Shown: positions 17,825-27,357 of the stretch, one piece after another | How the letters are laid out: every line of letters begins with the position of its first letter | How positions within the stretch are numbered: position 1 is the first letter of the stretch | Assembly (NCBI GenBank): GCA_021604105.1 | Contig: BQIW01000002.1 | Location: 1 to 64,000, forward strand | Reading direction: 5' to 3' | Source of the DNA: Nitrospirales bacterium | GTDB taxonomy: Bacteria; Nitrospirota; Nitrospiria; Nitrospirales; UBA8639 | DNA: 64,000 nt | Notes under the pieces: generated by a model | What the model was told of the DNA's origin: nothing | Seen by the model: the letters and a program-made list of their open reading frames with translations, nothing else | Database searches by the model: none | Position numbers and translations under genes: made by a program

Positions 17825-18310
17825 TTAAGAATTGGAGGATAAATCAGGGAGGGGTTGAATTTTAGAACCGCTTGTTTCATGCGTATTCTCATGAGTATGG
17901 CAACCTAAATGGTGGCATAACCTTCGATTCCAAAACCCGGCCAGTGCGATCATGGAGGCACCAACCACATCAAAAACCATCTCTACCCCACCGCCTGATT
18001 CAATCAAAAGATGAGCGGTCATTAAAACCATAAGTCCGCAAGCCGTCAATAGAGCAGGACGGCCATCTCGATGCCTAGGATAGGTCACCAGCAATCCAAA
18101 GCCTGCCAACAAGGCAATCACCCCCAAAAATATCCATTCAGTAGTATCGGCCCAAAAGACTCCTATCATTCCATCAAGACCATCCCAAGAATGTGCAGCT
18201 ATGACGGGAAGGGCCAGCAATGCCAAAGGTGTCAAAGCGCAGTGCACAGCACATACCAGAGAAGCGATAGAGCCAGCTTTTGAAAGCCTTGGTCCAAGAG
18301 TTTTTATCAT
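17825..18310 (-). CDS. MerC-domain inner-membrane protein
   Basis: 161 residues with four predicted membrane helices. The first carries CAVHCALTPLALLALP, the cysteine-pair signature of MerC-type mercury or metal carriers. A His-rich C-terminal tail (CHHLGCHTHENTHE) could bind metal. There is no merA or merR nearby. The gene starts 12 bp after the stop of a Fur-family regulator, so the two are almost certainly co-transcribed and the protein probably handles the metal sensed by that regulator. Confidence 0.8.
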   Translation of the reverse strand: MIKTLGPRLSKAGSIASLVCAVHCALTPLALLALPVIAAHSWDGLDGMIGVFWADTTEWIFLGVIALLAGFGLLVTYPRHRDGRPALLTACGLMVLMTAHLLIESGGGVEMVFDVVGASMIALAGFWNRRLCHHLGCHTHENTHETSGSKIQPLPDLSSNS

Positions 18311-18322
18311 CTTATTGGTATT

Positions 18323-18751
18323 TTATTGGCACTGTGGACACAATCCTGTGAACTCCAAGGTATGATCATCCACGATAAATTGTGTCCGTTGTTCAATCAA
18401 TTTTGTGATTTTTTTTAACGGGCATAACAACAAATCCTCGATCTGACCACAGATCTGACAACGAATATGATGATGATGTTCGCGCCCTTCTTTAAGTTCA
18501 TATCTTGCGAGACCTTCCTGGTGAAGGTCTAATTGGAGCACCAGACCTAAGTCTTTCAGCACATGCAGGGTTCGGTACACAGTCACTAGATCAATTGCCA
18601 CTTTTTCCTGGTGCAATTGTTCAAAAATTTCAGTAGCGCTTATTGGATGGCGAGTCCTTTGCAATAACGCAAGGACGGCTTGGCGAGTACGGGTCATGCG
18701 TCGCCCTGTGGCTCGCAGATCTTTTTTGATGTTAGGTTCCAATTTTAACAA
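18323..18751 (-). CDS. Fur-family metalloregulator (Zur/Fur type)
   Basis: 142 residues. The N-terminal winged helix has TRTRQAVLALLQ and VAIDLVTVYRTLHVLKDLGL (recognition helix). The dimerisation domain shows the metal cluster HHHHIRCQICGQIEDL (about 92-107) and the second Cys pair GLCPQCQ at the C-terminus, forming the structural CxxC...CxxC zinc site. The His-rich run fits the Zur or Fur sensory site; which metal is sensed cannot be decided. A TTGCAA-N5-TTGCAA palindrome lies 30 bp upstream of the start, and a near copy precedes a TonB-receptor operon at 24.9 kb, so autoregulation and control of that operon are likely. Confidence 0.9.
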   Translation of the reverse strand: MLKLEPNIKKDLRATGRRMTRTRQAVLALLQRTRHPISATEIFEQLHQEKVAIDLVTVYRTLHVLKDLGLVLQLDLHQEGLARYELKEGREHHHHIRCQICGQIEDLLLCPLKKITKLIEQRTQFIVDDHTLEFTGLCPQCQ

Positions 18752-18780: not shown

Positions 18781-18799
18781 ATTGCAAGTTTATTGCAAT
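18781..18799. promoter_or_regulatory. Putative Fur/Zur-type operator, regulator copy
   Basis: ATTGCAAGTTTATTGCAAT: two TTGCAA hexamers with starts 11 bp apart, 30 bp before the regulator's start codon. It differs at two of 19 bases from the site at 24885-24903. Spacing and symmetry suit a Fur-family dimer site, but the sequence is not the classical Fur box. Confidence 0.65.
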
Positions 18800-19049
18800 T
18801 ACCATATCGGCATCTGATTGTCAATTACGAGGCGCAGGAAAACCGATTCAAAACTTCTCTTCATTGAGAAAGATTCTCGGCCTCATATTGATCGCATAAA
18901 AAACCATTTACGAATTGAGCTCTCAAGTATTGATTTGGACCTGGGAAATTCCAGAAGAAAGGTTGGAAGATGTTTTAGGTGGGAATTCTTAAAAAACTCA
19001 ACCTCATTTATCGCGACTAGCGGAAGGGCTCTTACCCGTGTAAAAAGCT
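18800..19049. other. Spacer between the Fur-family gene and the Pal-like gene, no gene recognised
   Basis: No frame with a start signal and no known family. Any plus-strand transcript from the operator region would enter this stretch, but I see nothing it would encode. Confidence 0.4.
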
Positions 19050-19604
19050 TTACTCCAATAGCAAGTCAGCACGTCGGTTAAATTGATGGCATTGATGTTC
19101 GTCATCAACCTCACATAGAACCAAGGTATTCCCAAAGGAAACCACATCAAGACGTTTACGTGAAATTCCTAAATTAGCCAGATATTCTTTGACGGCCTTT
19201 GCTCGTCGTACCCCTAGAACCATATTATAACTTTCTGTTCCACGTGCATCCGTATGTCCCTCAATTATGAGTTCATAATTTTGAAAACGATTCATCCAAC
19301 TAGCCGTGGCATCCAGACGATCTTGAACTTCTGATGAAATTTCCCAACTATCGAAGGGAAAGTACACTGTAGGAAAAGGATCTATTGAGGGCTTTTCACG
19401 AGATATTCCCGTCTTCGGGCCCTGAGGAATGCTCATGAGTTGGGAAAGTGACGAGGAACCTTCAGCTTCCGCGGTCGAAAGAGAGGTCAAAGTGGCCGGT
19501 GGTGGCCCTGAAGTCAAGACATTAAAAGACTGATCAGTCATTGAAAGCGATTCACATCCCCATGTTGCACATACTAGAAGGATTCCAAGAAATCGTAACA
19601 ACAT
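19050..19604 (-). CDS. OmpA-domain (Pal-like) outer-membrane lipoprotein
   Basis: 184 residues. The signal peptide ends in a lipobox with Cys17 (LVCATWGC). A Ser/Thr/Pro linker of about 65 residues precedes an OmpA-like peptidoglycan-binding domain: VYFPFDSWEI, LIIEGHTDARGTESYNMVLG and VRRAKAVKEYL, the diaminopimelate-contacting region of Pal. The ending FNRRADLLLE corresponds to the NRRV strand. It should anchor the outer membrane to the cell wall. No tol genes are adjacent, so it may be a Pal paralogue rather than the Tol-system one. Confidence 0.85.
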   Translation of the reverse strand: MLLRFLGILLVCATWGCESLSMTDQSFNVLTSGPPPATLTSLSTAEAEGSSSLSQLMSIPQGPKTGISREKPSIDPFPTVYFPFDSWEISSEVQDRLDATASWMNRFQNYELIIEGHTDARGTESYNMVLGVRRAKAVKEYLANLGISRKRLDVVSFGNTLVLCEVDDEHQCHQFNRRADLLLE

Positions 19605-19876
19605 ATCTAAACGCCCTCCTTTTTTCTATTATTTTCGGCAACGCACCCTCAAGACTTAAGATTTTAAGATGATAGTCATTTTTTACATGGCCTATCTGAA
19701 CCCATGTACCAATGATTTTAGGAGAAAAGCCCGATCACCACCCCGAAGAATTCCACAACCCTTTTCAGGAATTACCGGGTAATAAAATCAGATTGTTTTT
19801 AAATGCAGGACAGAAAAGCACATGGAAGGTTCAACCCCGGAGGACAAGGCCCCAAGTAACGGTAGGGACTTTCTAC

Positions 19877-20065
19877 TTATGGGTGATTCAACAGGTCATT
19901 CTTCAATGGAGCCGATAAAAAAGCATGGTTTAGCCCCGAAAGACCATCAAACACATTAGTGCCTAAGGCCTGAAGAGATCCGACAATGACCATGCCGATT
20001 AAACTTAGAAGTAGGGCATATTCCAGCATTGCCGCCCCATGCTCTTTGGAAAAAAAACTACCCAT
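19877..20065 (-). CDS. Flp-family type IVb pilin
   Basis: 62 residues: a short positive leader, then GAAMLEYALLLSLIGMVIVG, the Flp pilin signature with prepilin cleavage after Gly and the conserved Glu-Tyr pair, then a short variable tail. Mature Flp subunits form tight-adherence pili. An AAGGAGGTT Shine-Dalgarno lies ahead of ATG 20065. No tad/cpa assembly genes are in the window, so this is an isolated pilin gene served by machinery elsewhere, or a paralogue. Confidence 0.85.
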   Translation of the reverse strand: MGSFFSKEHGAAMLEYALLLSLIGMVIVGSLQALGTNVFDGLSGLNHAFLSAPLKNDLLNHP

Positions 20066-20596
20066 TTTCGTAACCTCCTTCTAAACCACTTTTTCTCTGT
20101 TGTAGGAGTTGTTGTATCCAATCCATTATGCAAATGGTAAACCGAACACCAAGGACACTGCCTTTCCATCAATTCCCCTTGCTTGTCTGAATGCTTTTCT
20201 CCGACCTAGTCCTTACGGGGAAGACATTAAAACAGCTTTCCTTTTCTCTTTTGGCAAACACCTCGACGCATCCAGGGATCACACAGATAAGCCCACCAAC
20301 ATCTAAAAAGAAGTTTCTGATAGTCAATAAAACAGCCACAGAAACTGTTAACGAACATGACGAATTGGGAAAAATTCCCCCCAAAAGCCTGGTAGAGACC
20401 CACGAGTTCACGCCACAGGGTCCTCGGCGCCGACCTTGGTAGATAAAAGGGTTTGAAATAAGAGCAAAAGACATAAAAAAATGAATAAAAGTTGATAATC
20501 TCTCATAGCAAATTGAAATTCGTAGGATGAACTCTGAAACTCCGTGAATTTTGTGGACACGAAAAAAAATACTGAAAATGTACTTAAGGAGGTGTC
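20066..20596. other. 530-bp stretch without a convincing gene
   Basis: On the minus strand a frame begins MRDYQLLFIFLCLLLLFQTL near 20506, looks like a signal peptide, then stops at 20408. A neighbouring frame continues for ~80 residues without recognisable features, so this could be a frameshifted exported protein. The right end abuts an IS3-family remnant. Confidence 0.35.
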
Positions 20597-20843
20597 TATG
20601 AGCAGAACAGGCTGGTGGTTAACGTGAAAGCGGTGCATCAACCCAGTCAGCCAGCAGACTTAGCCCACGGGTTCATGCGGCTCTGAAGACCAATGGAATG
20701 ATCCCAGCAACCATTGGGTGGCCCAACTGATACACCGGCATGGAGTGACCTTCCGGCACGAGCGAAAATTCCGGGCGAAGGCCAACTCCAGGCATCAGCA
20801 TTCCGTCGCTGACAACTTGTTCGAACAGCAGTTTACGGTATGA
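20597..20843 (+). pseudogene. IS3-family transposase (OrfB) fragment
   Basis: Pieces of the OrfB N-terminal region survive in different frames: PRVHAALKTNGM, then NHWVAQLIHRHGVTFRHE and RKFRAKANSRH, then VADNLFEQQFTV. Together they match the segment just before the DDE core, with several frameshifts and stops. The DDE domain itself is missing. A strong Shine-Dalgarno-like AAGGAGGT lies just upstream, but no intact product can be made. Confidence 0.65.
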
Positions 20844-21064
20844 AGATCCAACCCCTGGTGGGTGTCAGGATGATGGTGATCCTTCAGAGAATTAAATATC
20901 TCTTGTCTTTGATTGGGGAAACATTCTTGTGGTATTTCTCCTCCGTCCCATCCAGGATTCAAGTGATTCATGAGCTCTAAGAAATACACAGAAATGCTGG
21001 ACAGATGAGTCAGTCGATTTTTTAATGTCCGACGGCCTCAAAACAAAGCCAATTAAATACAAAA

Positions 21065-21466
21065 ATGCTGAGGGTTAGATCAAGGCTGTCAACATCAGAA
21101 CAATTGTTAGCAATCTTCGCTGATCAGGAAAATCAAACACTGGGAATGGAACAGAAAAAAGACAGTTTCATCGGCCGGGTCAGAAAAACCATGCGTGCAA
21201 TCACGAGGAAGAACGTCAAGAGATTCAATGATTTGTTATCTCAAACAATTGAATCACAACCCAATCAACCACAAAGAAAAAAAATACCCTATACTTTTAC
21301 GTCTCAAATAAAGGTTATCCAAGGCTACAACATGGACGCATTGGTTGCGGAAAAAAGCTCTTCTCAGGACTCTACAACACCATTGGACCATTCACACCTA
21401 AAAATCTTGGGAAAAATGATCTGTCCCCCGAACAAAACCTATAGGAGATTAGAAAAGATTTACTGA
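21065..21466 (+). CDS. Doubtful hypothetical ORF
   Basis: A 133-codon open frame rich in Lys, Gln and Ser, with no Shine-Dalgarno at its first ATG and no recognised domain. Its end overlaps the 3' end of the convergent TonB-type gene. An internal ATG at 21146 (MEQKKDSF) is an alternative start. The 20844-21064 stretch before it holds nothing I recognise. Confidence 0.25.
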   Translation: MLRVRSRLSTSEQLLAIFADQENQTLGMEQKKDSFIGRVRKTMRAITRKNVKRFNDLLSQTIESQPNQPQRKKIPYTFTSQIKVIQGYNMDALVAEKSSSQDSTTPLDHSHLKILGKMICPPNKTYRRLEKIY

Positions 21467-21906
21467 GTACGAAAGTGAATACGGAGTGAGACTTCACCAT
21501 CAATAGGTTCATCGCCACTCATTTGAGGCAAAAAGGTCCACTGCTTTAGAGCCAGTATAGAAGCTTGAGTGAGTTCGCGATGTGCCGCAGGTTGAAGAAT
21601 GACCACCGTCACATCTGAATTTTTACTGACCAATATTCGAGCTTTAAGCCAATCATCTAAAATTTGCCCATCTAGGGTAGATGGAATCGTGGGCCAGGGA
21701 GTTCGTTGTGGGACCGGCCCATTTTGTTGATCTTTATTGAGTCGTAGCCCATGGACATGTACCGTGTCGAGAGTTTCCACCTGTACGTCTTCTTCATGGT
21801 CAGATTGATGCGTCGCGAAATCTGATTCGGACGCATAGGAAAGCAATGGACCACTGACAAGCCAGAGCATATGCATGCAGAAACCCAGATTTCTGGAAAC
21901 GCTCAT
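21460..21906 (-). CDS. TonB-type C-terminal domain protein
   Basis: 148 residues from ATG 21906, only four bases after the stop of the TonB-dependent receptor gene. An N-terminal signal segment (MSVSRNLGFCMHMLWLVSG) is followed by an acidic His-containing linker and a C-terminal domain, DWLKARILVSKNSDVTVVIL to WTFLPQMSGDEPIDGEVSL. The pattern (V-x-V-x-x-S, A-x-x-A-L-x-x-W-x-F-x-P) is that of TonB C-termini. It lacks the usual proline-rich spacer, so it may not span the periplasm as true TonB does. It may act as an accessory coupling or sensing partner for the receptor. Confidence 0.65.
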   Translation of the reverse strand: MSVSRNLGFCMHMLWLVSGPLLSYASESDFATHQSDHEEDVQVETLDTVHVHGLRLNKDQQNGPVPQRTPWPTIPSTLDGQILDDWLKARILVSKNSDVTVVILQPAAHRELTQASILALKQWTFLPQMSGDEPIDGEVSLRIHFRTQ

Positions 21907-21910
21907 GGAA

Positions 21911-24355
21911 TTACCCACCAAAAAAGAATTGCCCACGAAAGAAAAAAGAACGGGGCATGTTAGCATGCGCCACACCAAGGCCAATACTCCCCTCCCCATC
22001 ATTTAGAAAGACTTGTTGGTCCAGGAGATTGATGACATCAAACCCCAAAAGCGCTTTATAGTTATCCCAAAGAGGGAGAAGATGTTCGATAGAAAGATTG
22101 TACGTGGTATAGGACGGGCTGTGAGTAGCGTTTGTCTTTCCACCGGGATCGGATGACCGAAGTCCCGATCCGAACAACATTTGTCCGGTAATGGTAGTAT
22201 ACGCAAAAGGGTGATAGGTAAGCACAGCCGAACTTGTAACCAATTGCATATGATCACAATATACTCCGCTGTGAGAATTTATATCATCAATTTCGTTTTG
22301 CTCCAACAAAAAATAACCTGACTGTAGTTTTTTCCCTCGACACTGACCCCAAGCGACATTACCGCGCCCGTACAGGTTTTCTAAAAATTTAGCCTTAACC
22401 GTCAAATCGACCCCCCGCTGCCAGCCCCGCTTAAACGCAAAATAATTAAGAAGCGGAGTAGTCCCGAATTGGCCCGCATCTGATAGATTTTTATTCAATT
22501 TATAATAACCGGTTAATTCTATGGCCAAGGAATCCCCTAAGGCATGAGCAGAGCCGACTTCGAAATAATGCGCTCGTTCGGGTTCCACGGTTCGATTAGT
22601 CAAGTTTTCTGGTTGTGCGGTAGTACCCAGGGTATTCAGCTGAAGGAAAGGAACGGATTCAAGATTTGGAGGAGTAAATAATCTTCCATAAAAGGCATGA
22701 AAGACATGATTTGGAGTCATGGCATACGTGGCTCCTACCCGTGGACTTATTTGCCCATCATTGGTCAAGGCCTGGATTTGATCGAAGCGAACGCCCAGAT
22801 TAAAGGTCCATTGAGCCCAGGGGGTCCATTGATCTTGGATCCAGAACTCCTCGCGCCATCCAATGGTACGATTATCGGCATTTCGAGAAATGACTCCCCC
22901 TATGGGATCGCCTGCTCCATCCCTCAAAAAAGCCGATAGCCGGGTTTTATTGACAGCCTGGGTCCTTTGAATCTGAAATCCCGTTTTTATTAAATGGTCA
23001 GGATTTAATCGATGACTGTAATCTAACCGTATCCCGCCAGCATAGGCCCACCGGTCCTGATCGCTTGCTGAAAAAGGCTCGTCAGTATCTTGCGTATAGG
23101 ATAGGGCATTAAAAGGGTCGGTCTGGAAGGTGGCTCGGGAATGCTGAAAAAACCCAGACATACTGAGAAACTGATCCTGACCCCAATCATGCCGCCAAAC
23201 CAGGTGTGAATATTGATTGTTCTCCTTCTGGTATTCATCAATATGTTGGGAACCAACCGGTTCAAAACCCGGATCAGTCTCTTGGATAAGCCCGACAATA
23301 GTGGGATTTGCCACTAGCCCTGGTTTTGTTGGAATTTGAAATTTGGCCACTGAGTTTAGAAATAGCCACGTCACGGTATTCTGATTATCGATTTGCAAGT
23401 CCCCCCGCACCATAGTTTGATTTTGGTTACTTTGATCATGAAAAATCGTTTTTCCCAAGGTCGGAGGGTTAATCCCTCGGTTTGTGGATGTAAAGCTATT
23501 TTGCAGATAGTAGCGAAAGCTTGATCCTACCGTACCCCCATACTCAAAAGCCGGATTAATGGTTTCATTCGAACCTCCAAAATATTGGACAGACCCAAAG
23601 CCAGGCTTGGTCCCGCTTTTGGTGGTCACGTCGATAACGGCTGCGGTTTTATTCCCGAATTGCGCCTCCGGTCCACCTAAAATAATGTCTGCACGCTCCC
23701 AGGTTCGTGGAGAAATGACATCCGTAAACACCGAAGAGACGGTATCGGGAATCGGAACACCATCAACCCGGAATTGGTAATTGGCGTGATCTTGACGAAT
23801 GTGTACTTGTTTCAGTCCCCCATCTACCGCACTGGGAAGGGTTAAAAGCAGATCATTAAGAGCAATATTATTCCCTCGGGGTAATTCCTCGATATCCTTG
23901 CGACTCACCGAATAGGATTCTCCCGAGAGCCGATGCTGAATAGGCGGCAAAGAGGCCACAATCTCAAGAGAAAGCTCCTGACGATGTGCCAGGGTTAACT
24001 TGACCTCAAGTAATGGATCCTTTTCAATCTTAAGAATCGTTGATTCGCTCGATAGGTCTGACTGAATTGCTCGAATAGAATAAACACCAGACTCAGGAGG
24101 AGCTAAAATAAACTCACCCTCTTCATTTGTCACTTGAGTCTCAATGATCGAGCCTTCTTGATCCCGCAATTCTACTGTTGCCTGAGGAACACGGCGAAGA
24201 TCCTCATATTGCACTAAACCGGTTACAATCCAGACCTTTTTGTTATTGTCTTTTTCCAGAGCTTGAACAAGGCTAACATCGACAAACGTCCCCAATCCGA
24301 AAATCCAGAGAACAAGTCCACACCACTCCCCCCATTTACCATTCCCAGTCAACAT
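21911..24355 (-). CDS. TonB-dependent outer-membrane receptor with N-terminal CarboxypepD-like domain
   Basis: 814 residues. After a signal peptide (about 1-35) comes a carboxypeptidase-regulatory-like beta sandwich (WIVTGLVQYEDLRRVPQATV to about 125). A plug domain follows (DIEELPRGNNIALNDLLLTL to VIDVTTKSGTKPGFG, about 155-250), then a 22-strand barrel ending in alternating aromatics (SFFFRGQFFFGG). It imports a scarce ligand using the proton-motive force. It is second in an apparent operon: a His-rich exported protein lies upstream and the TonB-type protein follows. A Fur-family-type box in front of the operon points to a metal or metal chelate, with zinc or iron both open. No periplasmic transporter is adjacent. 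Confidence 0.9.
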   Translation of the reverse strand: MLTGNGKWGEWCGLVLWIFGLGTFVDVSLVQALEKDNNKKVWIVTGLVQYEDLRRVPQATVELRDQEGSIIETQVTNEEGEFILAPPESGVYSIRAIQSDLSSESTILKIEKDPLLEVKLTLAHRQELSLEIVASLPPIQHRLSGESYSVSRKDIEELPRGNNIALNDLLLTLPSAVDGGLKQVHIRQDHANYQFRVDGVPIPDTVSSVFTDVISPRTWERADIILGGPEAQFGNKTAAVIDVTTKSGTKPGFGSVQYFGGSNETINPAFEYGGTVGSSFRYYLQNSFTSTNRGINPPTLGKTIFHDQSNQNQTMVRGDLQIDNQNTVTWLFLNSVAKFQIPTKPGLVANPTIVGLIQETDPGFEPVGSQHIDEYQKENNQYSHLVWRHDWGQDQFLSMSGFFQHSRATFQTDPFNALSYTQDTDEPFSASDQDRWAYAGGIRLDYSHRLNPDHLIKTGFQIQRTQAVNKTRLSAFLRDGAGDPIGGVISRNADNRTIGWREEFWIQDQWTPWAQWTFNLGVRFDQIQALTNDGQISPRVGATYAMTPNHVFHAFYGRLFTPPNLESVPFLQLNTLGTTAQPENLTNRTVEPERAHYFEVGSAHALGDSLAIELTGYYKLNKNLSDAGQFGTTPLLNYFAFKRGWQRGVDLTVKAKFLENLYGRGNVAWGQCRGKKLQSGYFLLEQNEIDDINSHSGVYCDHMQLVTSSAVLTYHPFAYTTITGQMLFGSGLRSSDPGGKTNATHSPSYTTYNLSIEHLLPLWDNYKALLGFDVINLLDQQVFLNDGEGSIGLGVAHANMPRSFFFRGQFFFGG

Positions 24356-24483
24356 TCAGCTCCCCCCAGCATCTAACAATCGATTAGCCGGATGTCTCCC
24401 CTCTCGTCATTCACAAGCACCCTTCCGTTTGGAAGTCTGCGAAAGGATGAATCGACGGTGAAAGACAGTTGTAAAAAATAAAA

Positions 24484-24825
24484 TTAGGAGAAAAAAGAAG
24501 CTGGAGGACCGCGTGGGTTACCGAGGGAAAGGGCGAGAGACGTATACGTCTCATCTCGATCAAGGGAAAAGAAACCGGCAACGAAAAACCAATGGGATAA
24601 ACCCGAGGCCTCCCAAATTAAGGAATTGGAAGTATGGTGTTGTACCCATTGGCATACATCATCATCAGAATGCTGATGCCCATCATAATCCACCTCAGCA
24701 AATACATGATGGATTCCTAAGGCCTGCACAAGCGGCATTGAACTCAACAACACCAAAGCAAGTGCTAGGACCAAGCTAAAATTACATTGAAAGATGAGAG
24801 GTGGCGATTTTCGAATCATGAACAT
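24484..24825 (-). CDS. His-rich small exported protein
   Basis: About 113 residues from ATG 24825 (or 24819). A signal or membrane helix (SLVLALALVLLSSMPLVQAL) precedes a metal-binding-looking stretch, IHHVFAEVDYDGHQHSDDD and VCQWVQHHTSNSL, with six His, one Cys and several Asp. I recall similar short His-rich proteins next to TonB receptors, but cannot name a family with certainty. The long upstream open frame crosses the operator and is not coding. The gene is first in the operon and 60 bp downstream of the 24885-24903 box, so metal-controlled expression is expected. Confidence 0.65.
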   Translation of the reverse strand: MFMIRKSPPLIFQCNFSLVLALALVLLSSMPLVQALGIHHVFAEVDYDGHQHSDDDVCQWVQHHTSNSLIWEASGLSHWFFVAGFFSLDRDETYTSLALSLGNPRGPPASFFS

Positions 24826-24884
24826 TTTTGCCAAGTAAATCCTTGCGGCAAAAATACCAAAGGCCCTTAGGCGTGTCAACATTA

Positions 24885-24903
24885 ATTGCAATTTAATTGC
24901 AAT
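24885..24903. promoter_or_regulatory. Putative Fur/Zur-type operator, receptor-operon copy
   Basis: ATTGCAATTTAATTGCAAT contains TTGCAATT-T-AATTGCAA, a perfect palindrome with 8-bp arms. It has the same TTGCAA-N5-TTGCAA design as the site before the Fur-family gene (17 of 19 bases identical). It lies 60 bp upstream of the His-rich gene, where RNA polymerase would bind. Confidence 0.65.
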
Positions 24904-25152: not shown

Positions 25153-25701
25153 TTGGGAACTGCCAATAAACTTTTTATTACCTGTATGGTATTAGCGATT
25201 GGTACCGTGGTGGGCGTGCATGCTTTTCTCAGTCAATTATCTTTAGACCAATCGCTTCTTCCCACTCGTTCGCATCCTCCCAAATCAGCCCAAGTGACTG
25301 CTGGCAGCGAAGATTCTGTAATTTCCCTTGAACATTTAGGAGGTGTTTGGGTGGCCCGGGTGGAGTTGAATGATTTCCATGAAGCCAGACTCATAGTTGA
25401 TACAGGTGCAACCTATACAACAATTTCAGAAGATTTGGCATTTGATGCGGGGATTCGGTCAGATACGGCCAATTCGCCGATTAACCTGCATACTGTAGGG
25501 GGAAGGATTCAAGCCGAGCTAGGCGTCGCACGAAGAATCCGTGTGGGTAATACAGACAGAGATGATGTCCGAGTAGTCATACATACCATACCGAACCTCC
25601 CCGATGGGATCGACGGCCTACTCGGCCTCAGCTTCTTTGATCGCTTCCTGGTTCGTCTGGACCACTCCAACCAACAATTATATCTCACGCCAAGGTCTTA
25701 A
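25153..25701 (+). CDS. Retropepsin-like aspartic protease, membrane-anchored
   Basis: 182 residues. A hydrophobic N-terminus (LFITCMVLAIGTVVGVHAF) is a likely anchor. The protease core has LIVDTGATYTTIS (about 93-105) with the catalytic Asp-Thr-Gly, and DGLLGLSFFDRFLVRLD near the C-terminus, the second hallmark of clan AA single-domain bacterial proteases, which work as dimers. Start is TTG 25153 with AAGGA just upstream; no ATG precedes the membrane segment. Substrates are unknown. Confidence 0.85.
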   Translation: MGTANKLFITCMVLAIGTVVGVHAFLSQLSLDQSLLPTRSHPPKSAQVTAGSEDSVISLEHLGGVWVARVELNDFHEARLIVDTGATYTTISEDLAFDAGIRSDTANSPINLHTVGGRIQAELGVARRIRVGNTDRDDVRVVIHTIPNLPDGIDGLLGLSFFDRFLVRLDHSNQQLYLTPRS

Positions 25702-25717
25702 ACTCCGGAATCTCTTC

Positions 25718-25739
25718 CAGCCCTGCCTGGCTGTTTTTT
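25718..25739 (+). terminator. Rho-independent terminator
   Basis: CAGCC (25718-25722), a six-base loop, GGCTG (25729-25733), then six T (25734-25739), 16 bases after the protease stop codon. Textbook hairpin plus T-tract for the upstream gene. Confidence 0.75.
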
Positions 25740-25936
25740 GGTTATTGATCTTGAGCTAGATCCCATTTTCCATCCCTTAATTTGCAGGTTGAGGGACGGG
25801 CACAACCTTTTCTCCGGTCCTTCCTAAACAGACAAAAAATCTCCGACCTTAGTAGGATAGAGAGAATCAGTCCTTGACAGCTCTCGAAGGCAGTATGGTA
25901 ATACTACCTTTCCCCTAAACAGACAGGACTTAACCT

Positions 25937-26380
25937 ATGCGATTCTTCATTTATGCAGACAATTTGAATCCCACGCAGCTCAAACGACGTGCTCCCGAAG
26001 CACAATTTTTATTTCAGGCATATGTACCAGACCACACCATCAAATTTGGGCGATGGTCCAACCAATGGCGCTGTGGATTAGCCACCATTGCCCCTTCTGC
26101 TGGTGAGCGGGTGTGGGGCGGAGTTTTTGAGCTCACTCAGGAGGACGTCCAAGAAATGGACAAGTTCGAGGGTGATCTTCCAGAAGGAGCATTTCGCCAT
26201 GTTGAAGTCCATGTGTTCACCAAGGATGAAGAAAAAGAGTTCGTAAGCACGCACGTAGCCCAAAGCATTGGAAAGTTTAAAGCCAAAGATCATTATTTAG
26301 ATTGGATTCTTGCGGGAGTTAAACATTGGAAACTACCGGAAGAATGCGTAGACATGTGGAATTTGTTTCGCTCGCAATGA
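25937..26380 (+). CDS. Gamma-glutamylcyclotransferase-like (GGCT/AIG2 fold) protein
   Basis: 147 residues. The N-terminal FIYADNLNPTQLKRRAPEA is the substrate-phosphate-type loop of the fold (Y-x-x-L). RWSNQWRCGLATIAPSAGERVWGGVFEL is followed by EMDKFEGD, which places a Glu where the family's catalytic acid lies. Members cyclise gamma-glutamyl dipeptides or act on related amides. Substrate not predictable. Confidence 0.75.
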   Translation: MRFFIYADNLNPTQLKRRAPEAQFLFQAYVPDHTIKFGRWSNQWRCGLATIAPSAGERVWGGVFELTQEDVQEMDKFEGDLPEGAFRHVEVHVFTKDEEKEFVSTHVAQSIGKFKAKDHYLDWILAGVKHWKLPEECVDMWNLFRSQ

Positions 26381-26445
26381 GCCTTTTGTTCTTTTTTTCG
26401 ATTAATTGTATCTCTCTTTTACCTATTCGTTAAGAAGGAGCATCT

Positions 26446-26772
26446 ATGCCAAAACCGAAGTATCACATTCTGGTGTGCACGAATTCCCGCCCTCCTGGAC
26501 ATCCCAAGCCTTCTTGTGGAGCTGCGGGTGCGCAAAATTTATTGATGGCACTTAATATGGGCTTGATTGAACGTGGCGTTCAACCTGGCGAGGTATTAGT
26601 CACTGGGACAACATGTCTCGGGCCTTGCGAAAGTGGCCCTAACGTTGTCGTCTATCCAACAGGAACCTGGTACTCTCAGGTCAAAGACTCCGATGTGGCG
26701 GTAATATTGGATGAGCATATAAAAAAGGGAGAGCCTGCTGCCCAGCTCAAACCGGACTCCGTCTGGTCTTAA
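26446..26772 (+). CDS. Thioredoxin-like [2Fe-2S] ferredoxin
   Basis: 108 residues. Four Cys line up as in Aquifex-type 2Fe-2S ferredoxins: Cys11 (LVCTNSRPPG), Cys24 (KPSCGAAG), and the pair TTCLGPCESGP at about 57 and 61. It should shuttle electrons in the cytosol. AGAAGGAG precedes ATG 26446. The MoaB gene follows in 28 bp on the same strand, so the two may be co-transcribed. Confidence 0.88.
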   Translation: MPKPKYHILVCTNSRPPGHPKPSCGAAGAQNLLMALNMGLIERGVQPGEVLVTGTTCLGPCESGPNVVVYPTGTWYSQVKDSDVAVILDEHIKKGEPAAQLKPDSVWS

Positions 26773-26799
26773 TTTTCAGGTTTGCCCCATAGGCTAAGC

Positions 26800-27357
26800 A
26801 TGGATGAACCCCAACATCATGAAGGACATGGATCACATTCCGACCACTCTCAACCGTCTCATCTCACACACAAAACACAGGTGCCATCCTCCTTGGTCTG
26901 CATGGTGCTCACATGTAGTGATACCAGGACGCCAGACTCCGATACCAGTGGAAAGTTAATCTGCCATCTTTTAAAAGAACAGGGGCACTCCATCTCAGAG
27001 TACCGAATAATTAGAGATGAACCGGCCGAAATCAAAGCCATCCTCCTCCAAGCCAGAGGTCAGGAAGCGCTTCAGGTTATCATAATCAATGGCGGGACAG
27101 GTATTTCCCGGCGGGACTCCACGTTTGAAGCTGTTGATGGCTTATTGGAAAAACGGCTTGATGGATTTGGAGAGCTTTTCCGGTATTTGAGCTATCAAGA
27201 TATCGGATCGCCCGCCATGTTAAGTCGAGCCACTGCAGGCACCTATGGAAAACTGGTGATTTTTTCTATTCCGGGTTCCCAGGGGGCTGTCCGTCTTGCC
27301 ATGGAGAAGCTTATTCTATCTGAAATAGGGCACATAGCTGGAGAATTGACCAAATAG
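26800..27357 (+). CDS. moaB: MoaB/MogA family molybdenum cofactor protein
   Basis: About 185 residues from ATG 26800 (TTG 26782 is an alternative). After a His-rich leader (HHEGHGSHSDHSQPSH) comes the MPT-binding fold: LTCSDTRTPDSDTSG, IIINGGTGISRRDSTFEAV (the GGTG loop that binds molybdopterin or its adenylate), and FSIPGSQGAVRLAMEKL. The family adenylylates molybdopterin. The His-rich leader is unusual and could bind metal. Follows the ferredoxin gene. Confidence 0.88.
   Translation: MDEPQHHEGHGSHSDHSQPSHLTHKTQVPSSLVCMVLTCSDTRTPDSDTSGKLICHLLKEQGHSISEYRIIRDEPAEIKAILLQARGQEALQVIIINGGTGISRRDSTFEAVDGLLEKRLDGFGELFRYLSYQDIGSPAMLSRATAGTYGKLVIFSIPGSQGAVRLAMEKLILSEIGHIAGELTK

Follow-up and report, generated by a model that had tools for sequence, protein, structure and literature searches.

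Two operons in the window (the whole 64,000-nucleotide stretch of Nitrospirales DNA that was analysed) are preceded by near-identical palindromic boxes of the form TTGCAA-N5-TTGCAA and, as judged from sequence, they are a real two-operon regulon, which is probably of the Zur type and dedicated to zinc uptake. This reading draws on the two sites and their uniqueness in the genome, their conservation at both operons, the geometry of the promoters and the link of both the box and the regulator clade to zinc-type genes in relatives, all of which were observed. The features concerned are the following.

17825..18310, minus strand: MerC-like membrane protein of 161 amino acids (PF03203, 65.4 bits), 12 bp downstream of the regulator gene
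18323..18751, minus strand: FurX, Fur-family regulator of 142 amino acids with a TTG start (PF01475, 93.7 bits)
18781..18799, minus strand: regulator box 1, ATTGCAATAAACTTGCAAT in gene-ward reading, overlapping the likely -10 of the regulator gene by its 5' edge
21460..21906, minus strand: TonB_C-like exported protein (22.7 bits, just below the Pfam cut-off of 24.6); the listed ORF starts at 22002
21911..24355, minus strand: TonB-dependent outer-membrane receptor of 814 amino acids (PF00593, 91.2 bits)
24484..24825, minus strand: HisX, small His-rich exported protein (IHHVFAEVDYDGHQHSDDDVCQWVQHHTSNSL), first gene of its operon, with its ATG at 24825 and no Pfam match
24851..24879, minus strand: likely promoter of the uptake operon, TTGACA-N17-TATTTT with a TG ahead of the -10, the best promoter-like match of the region
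24885..24903, minus strand: regulator box 2, ATTGCAATTAAATTGCAAT in gene-ward reading, with the -35 hexamer 5 bp downstream

These genes agree with the calls of an earlier, sequence-only reading of the same DNA (Fur-family regulator, MerC-like protein, His-rich exported protein, TonB receptor and TonB-like protein), with the TonB_C match staying below cut-off. The MerC-like gene is probably co-transcribed with the regulator gene, and the TonB_C-like protein likely starts next to the end of the receptor gene, not at the start of the listed ORF. Pfam searches returned no credible family for HisX, and a sequence search at E 0.01 gave no solved structural relatives of the receptor. ZnuA was found in the window genome neither by protein search nor by PF01297, positive controls being detected in the family search.

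Positions 18781-18799 read ATTGCAAGTTTATTGCAAT and positions 24885-24903 read ATTGCAATTTAATTGCAAT, and direct comparison showed identity at 17 of the 19 positions, as the sequence-only reading had counted. Its distances of 30 and 60 bp between boxes and genes also hold (the likely starts, TTG at 18751 and ATG at 24825, are about 30 bp and about 60 bp away), and it was correct in stating that this is not the classical Fur box: the sites differ from the classical consensus quoted in PMC545781 and are not of the GATAATGATnATCATTATC type recognised by the iron regulator Fur. A search for TTGCAA-N5-TTGCAA in the window returned these two sites only. The genome-wide scan for further sites that the same reading had proposed covered 4,903,122 bases in 217 contigs and yielded exactly two matches, both in the window, so that the numerous chance occurrences in coding DNA that it had named as a refutation are absent from these 4.9 Mb. 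By chance, about 0.15-0.4 exact boxes would be expected per genome (about 0.36 with the base composition of the window, 47% G+C), and the box pattern read backwards, which served as a control, matched nine times in 59 genomes. Ten sites with one mismatch were present in the window genome, nine of them within reading frames and the tenth in an intergenic region of contig C33 with no metal gene adjoining. Relaxing the core to TGCAA-N5-TTGCA added three places in the genome, none of them convincing (coding DNA in contigs C11 and C188, and an intergenic site without a metal gene in C33). No box was found beside the starts of the main COG0523 gene and of the ZIP genes of the window genome.

Conservation was followed in 59 related genomes. 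FurX orthologs (58-99% identity) are present in most of the family, with the exact box just upstream of the regulator gene in the great majority of them and a one-mismatch box in most others. The 20 genomes of the window's genus contain 40 exact boxes, 36 of which stand directly before a FurX or HisX ortholog at the loci read; the other four lie inside coding frames (two in G002 and one each in G010 and G011). In all HisX operons read, the box leads straight into HisX, which in close relatives of the window genome is followed by the receptor and TonB-like genes, and the pair of regulator and MerC-like gene is likewise conserved in the family. In a phylogenetic tree, FurX of the window grouped with its orthologs from the family and with the COG0523-linked regulators of Nitrospira, including that of N. 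moscoviensis, in one clade (support 97/89) with the fur2/fur3 paralogs as its sister (98/95 for the whole group), and the other Fur-family proteins of the genome (contigs C12 and C71) fell outside the FurX clade. Uniqueness in the genome and conservation at both operons thus support the earlier proposal of one metal uptake circuit under one box. That reading had left the metal unnamed and the type of box unrecognised; the box has in fact already been published, and the ZnuABC, COG0523 and ZIP genes of relatives point to zinc.

The position of the boxes relative to the promoters bears on the sign of regulation. The likely promoter of the regulator gene in the window is TTGACA-N17-TAATTG, and in most of the 16 regulator promoters inspected a TTGACA-like hexamer is separated by about 17 bp from a TA(A/T)TTG hexamer downstream. 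Because the latter forms the start of the box, the box covers the likely -10, a placement that is typical for repression. In the HisX promoters (n = 19) the palindrome lies against the -35 instead: a spacer of 2-5 bp separates the box from TTGAC(A/T), with a one-letter variant in 2 of the 19, and about 17 bp after this -35 comes a -10 that in most copies is preceded by TG. Since over these 19 copies the -35 is consensus-like and the -10 mostly TG-extended, the HisX promoter should need no activator. A regulator that represses its own gene from the -10 and nevertheless activates the HisX operon, in either its metal-bound or its apo form, is a rather unlikely alternative. All 19 HisX promoters do have the box 2-5 bp ahead of the -35, and Zur is known to activate from upstream of the -35 in Caulobacter (PMC4176598) and in Streptomyces (PMC6103462). 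However, the -35 and the TG-extended -10 are near consensus, across so small a gap a Fur-family dimer bound to the box would be expected to cover the -35, and zinc-bound activation of ZnuABC would be physiologically senseless. The consensus-like promoter and the gap of 2-5 bp therefore favour repression of the HisX operon over its activation.

The identity of the metal is suggested by the genes that the box accompanies in other genomes. Six genomes of the family (G005, G008, G020, G023, G030 and G033) have this box ahead of HisX, after which a porin-like gene (BBP2) follows. Where the locus could be read to its end, ZnuA (PF01297, 161.8 bits), the ABC ATPase ZnuC and the ABC-3 permease ZnuB (PF00950, 100.9 bits) come next. 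This ZnuABC form of the operon occurs in sister genera. Both forms of the operon having been seen, and the window genome being without ZnuA, the slot led by HisX is occupied by one of two modules, the TonB receptor set or the porin together with ZnuABC. The loci of Nitrospira proper, those of N. moscoviensis (L164) and N. defluvii (L162) among them, show the order Fur, a HisX-like gene, COG0523, WD40 and again COG0523, with ZIP-like genes nearby, and in many of these genomes a one-mismatch box, ATGCAA-N5-TTGCAA, is present at the promoter of the ortholog. Receptor and TonB-like genes lie farther down in L164 and L157, and in L143 HisX and the receptor come directly after Fur. In Patescibacteria (L167 and L173), boxes of this type are also found ahead of Fur-family genes that adjoin ZIP-like genes, and they occur with a Fur-family gene and a weakly MerC-like neighbour in three MAGs labelled Armatimonadetes, Chlorobiota and Bacteroidetes (L165, L166 and L168, respectively).

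ZIP genes are Zur targets. COG0523 and znuABC are standard ones as well (PMC6103462), and all three classes are found with the box in relatives, the window genome's own target being the TonB receptor. The Fur-family gene is linked to the uptake genes that it would regulate, namely the HisX-receptor operon or, in relatives, HisX-ZnuABC. Because the box accompanies ZnuABC, COG0523 and ZIP genes in relatives, the metal of the regulon is most likely zinc.

The sensor itself is unusual. Alignment of the FurX orthologs showed an invariant HHHH stretch (92-95), an invariant Glu85 and two CxxC pairs. Alignment to structures placed an invariant proline, Pro36, at the position of the His that in Fur and PerR is a metal ligand; we take this position to belong also to the four-His site of Nur. 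The Fur/PerR-type His is missing as well from the actinobacterial Zur proteins (3mwm and 2o03), and the sensing site of Zur is made up of Cys plus His. The position of the Zur sensing Cys, in the alignment to these two proteins, is occupied by a residue other than Cys in every FurX ortholog. In profile comparisons, Zur structures did not match FurX better than those of Fur or PerR did. FurX may thus have a metal site of its own kind, with neither the Fur-type His nor the Zur-type Cys, and we regard it as Zur-like, its membership in Zur proper being putative.

A regulator of the same architecture that responds to manganese, iron or cobalt appears improbable. In its favour, Mn2+ or other metals can also be transported by ABC systems of the ZnuA/TroA type and by ZIPs, and the best-scoring NCBIfam model for FurX is Bacillus Fur, though at 99.6 bits it remains far below its cut-off of 220. 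Naming the metal from the NCBIfam models was rejected, all scores being far below the cut-offs. Against this possibility, the COG0523 GTPases and the WD40 partner gene of the orthologous operons fit zinc best, and the genome has other Fur-family proteins (those of C12 and C71) outside the FurX clade.

A further alternative is a Nur-type regulon that senses Ni2+ and whose receptor operon imports nickel for urease or hydrogenase, which we consider quite improbable. Nickel enzymes are present in nitrite-oxidizing Nitrospira and count in its favour, and the published Nur consensus tTGCaa-N5-ttGCAA (PMC3919588) agrees with the box at every letter, which, taken by itself, would speak for nickel. However, the box and the regulator accompany ZnuABC, COG0523 and ZIP in relatives, and the boxes examined have no recognisable gene for a nickel transporter, NiSOD or a nickel enzyme beside them. 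Nickel transport or Ni/Fe superoxide dismutase genes are the targets expected of Nur, and the exact box occurs in the window genome only at fur-merC and at HisX-receptor-TonB. Moreover, the M site of Nur consists of four His (PMC7055735), whereas FurX orthologs have the invariant Pro at the conserved Fur-family His position, which is presumably part of that site, and by profile Nur (3EYY, 60.7 bits) scores below Zur (3mwm, 73.5 bits). Finally, a chance likeness of two AT-rich palindromes is ruled out by the whole-genome counts and the conservation. TTGCAA is palindromic in itself and simple, and shuffling of the window yields several two-mismatch matches, but the box is unique genome-wide to these sites and kept at both promoters across divergent genera.

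Taking the zinc-uptake regulon as the preferred reading, we infer a circuit in which metal-loaded FurX, most likely with Zn2+, would bind the TTGCAA-N5-TTGCAA palindrome as a dimer. On the box over its own -10 it would shut the fur-merC operon (autorepression), and on the box against the -35 of the second promoter it would shut the operon of HisX, the TonB receptor and the TonB-like protein. Once zinc becomes scarce, apo-FurX would come off both sites and both operons would open. The receptor and the TonB-like protein would then take zinc or a zinc complex across the outer membrane, and HisX would bind zinc in the periplasm. Because no ZnuA was found in the genome, we propose that the MerC-like protein or a ZIP permease would move zinc inward. 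A broader and more tentative picture, possible but less likely than the regulon as such, is that of a Nitrospirota branch of zinc sensors with a sensing chemistry of its own, with a ZnuA-free route made up of TonB receptor, HisX carrier and MerC-like importer, and with a HisX-led slot in which the TonB-receptor module and the porin-plus-ZnuABC module are swapped.

Zur-like zinc-uptake regulons that include a TonB receptor are a known kind of system, and the class of box is known as well. In Desulfovibrio a Zur box, ATGCAAC-N3-GTTGCAT, was predicted before znuABC-zur in 2004 (PMC545781). The predicted Zur_D of that system resembles the present one in that a Fur-family regulator is tied to zinc uptake genes and in the common core TGCAA-N5-TTGCA, but there it is a single operon, znuABC-zur, whereas the present regulon is spread over two operons and includes a TonB receptor module, a His-rich leader and a MerC-like partner. 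Nur of Streptomyces coelicolor (PDB 3EYY) is a Fur-family protein with the identical box consensus, tTGCaa-N5-ttGCAA; unlike FurX, it is a Ni2+ sensor with nikABCDE and sodF/sodN as targets, while here the relatives have zinc-type targets and the conserved Fur-family His is replaced by Pro. Zur-repressed TonB receptors for zinc have been proven in Caulobacter (PMC4176598). The regulon of C. crescentus, where Zur represses several such receptors and an ABC transporter, is like the one proposed here in placing TonB-dependent zinc receptors under a Zur repressor, but it has the box GTTA-N5-TAAC and is larger, and no HisX or MerC-like partner has been described for it. The classical Zur-znuABC/COG0523 regulons (PMC6103462) share the target classes znuABC and COG0523 with the sister genomes, yet they use other boxes, and the sensing Cys of Zur is absent in FurX. 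The gene after the regulator matches the MerC mercury transporter family in sequence (PF03203, 65 bits); no mer operon is seen, however, and the MerC-like gene stands beside the Fur-family gene across the whole family of relatives. No description of a Zur regulon in Nitrospira was found in the open-access literature. New here are the HisX family, the MerC-like partner, the unusual sensor site and the exchange between a TonB-receptor module and a Znu module. The regulon offers a sharp, testable starvation response, to zinc or another metal, for the nitrite-oxidizer phylum, and it flags an unannotated family of His-rich proteins, HisX, as likely metal carriers. As the box of a nickel regulator recurs here with zinc-type genes, the shape of the box alone cannot assign the metal.

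Several additional observations were made at the loci read. G033 (L079, 11959-14992) has the box-HisX unit twice in tandem, with the porin-like gene after one copy and ZnuABC after the other, which is a duplication of the regulated leader. In G005 (L078, 5743-11876) a CopA-like P-type ATPase lies between the regulator and HisX together with a remnant TonB-like gene, as if the porin module had replaced the receptor module. The MAGs labelled Armatimonadetes (L165) and Chlorobiota (L166) carry near-identical Fur proteins by MerC-like genes, on very short tree branches, which suggests either a binning error or a recent transfer.

Paralogs of the regulator also occur. Contig C163 of the window genome (L092, 1521-3308) bears a second Fur-family gene (53% identical) with a second MerC-like gene and a small HisX-like protein, and no box with two or fewer mismatches was present before this fur2-merC2-HisX-like cluster; a cluster akin to this paralogous set was seen in L095/L096. 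A third type of Fur paralog (42-45% identical) accompanies a MerC-like gene in L109, L110 and L111, with a ZIP-like gene and one further MerC-like protein in the neighbourhood.

Divergent from HisX, positions 25153-27357 of the window contain a conserved run of genes that many relatives also have in synteny with the HisX operon. By eye, we take these genes to encode a retropepsin-like aspartic protease, a gamma-glutamylcyclotransferase-like protein, a small ferredoxin-like protein and a MogA-like molybdenum cofactor protein, the ferredoxin-like one being up to 100% identical between species. The divergent gene starts about 250 bp from box 2, which may have an effect on it.
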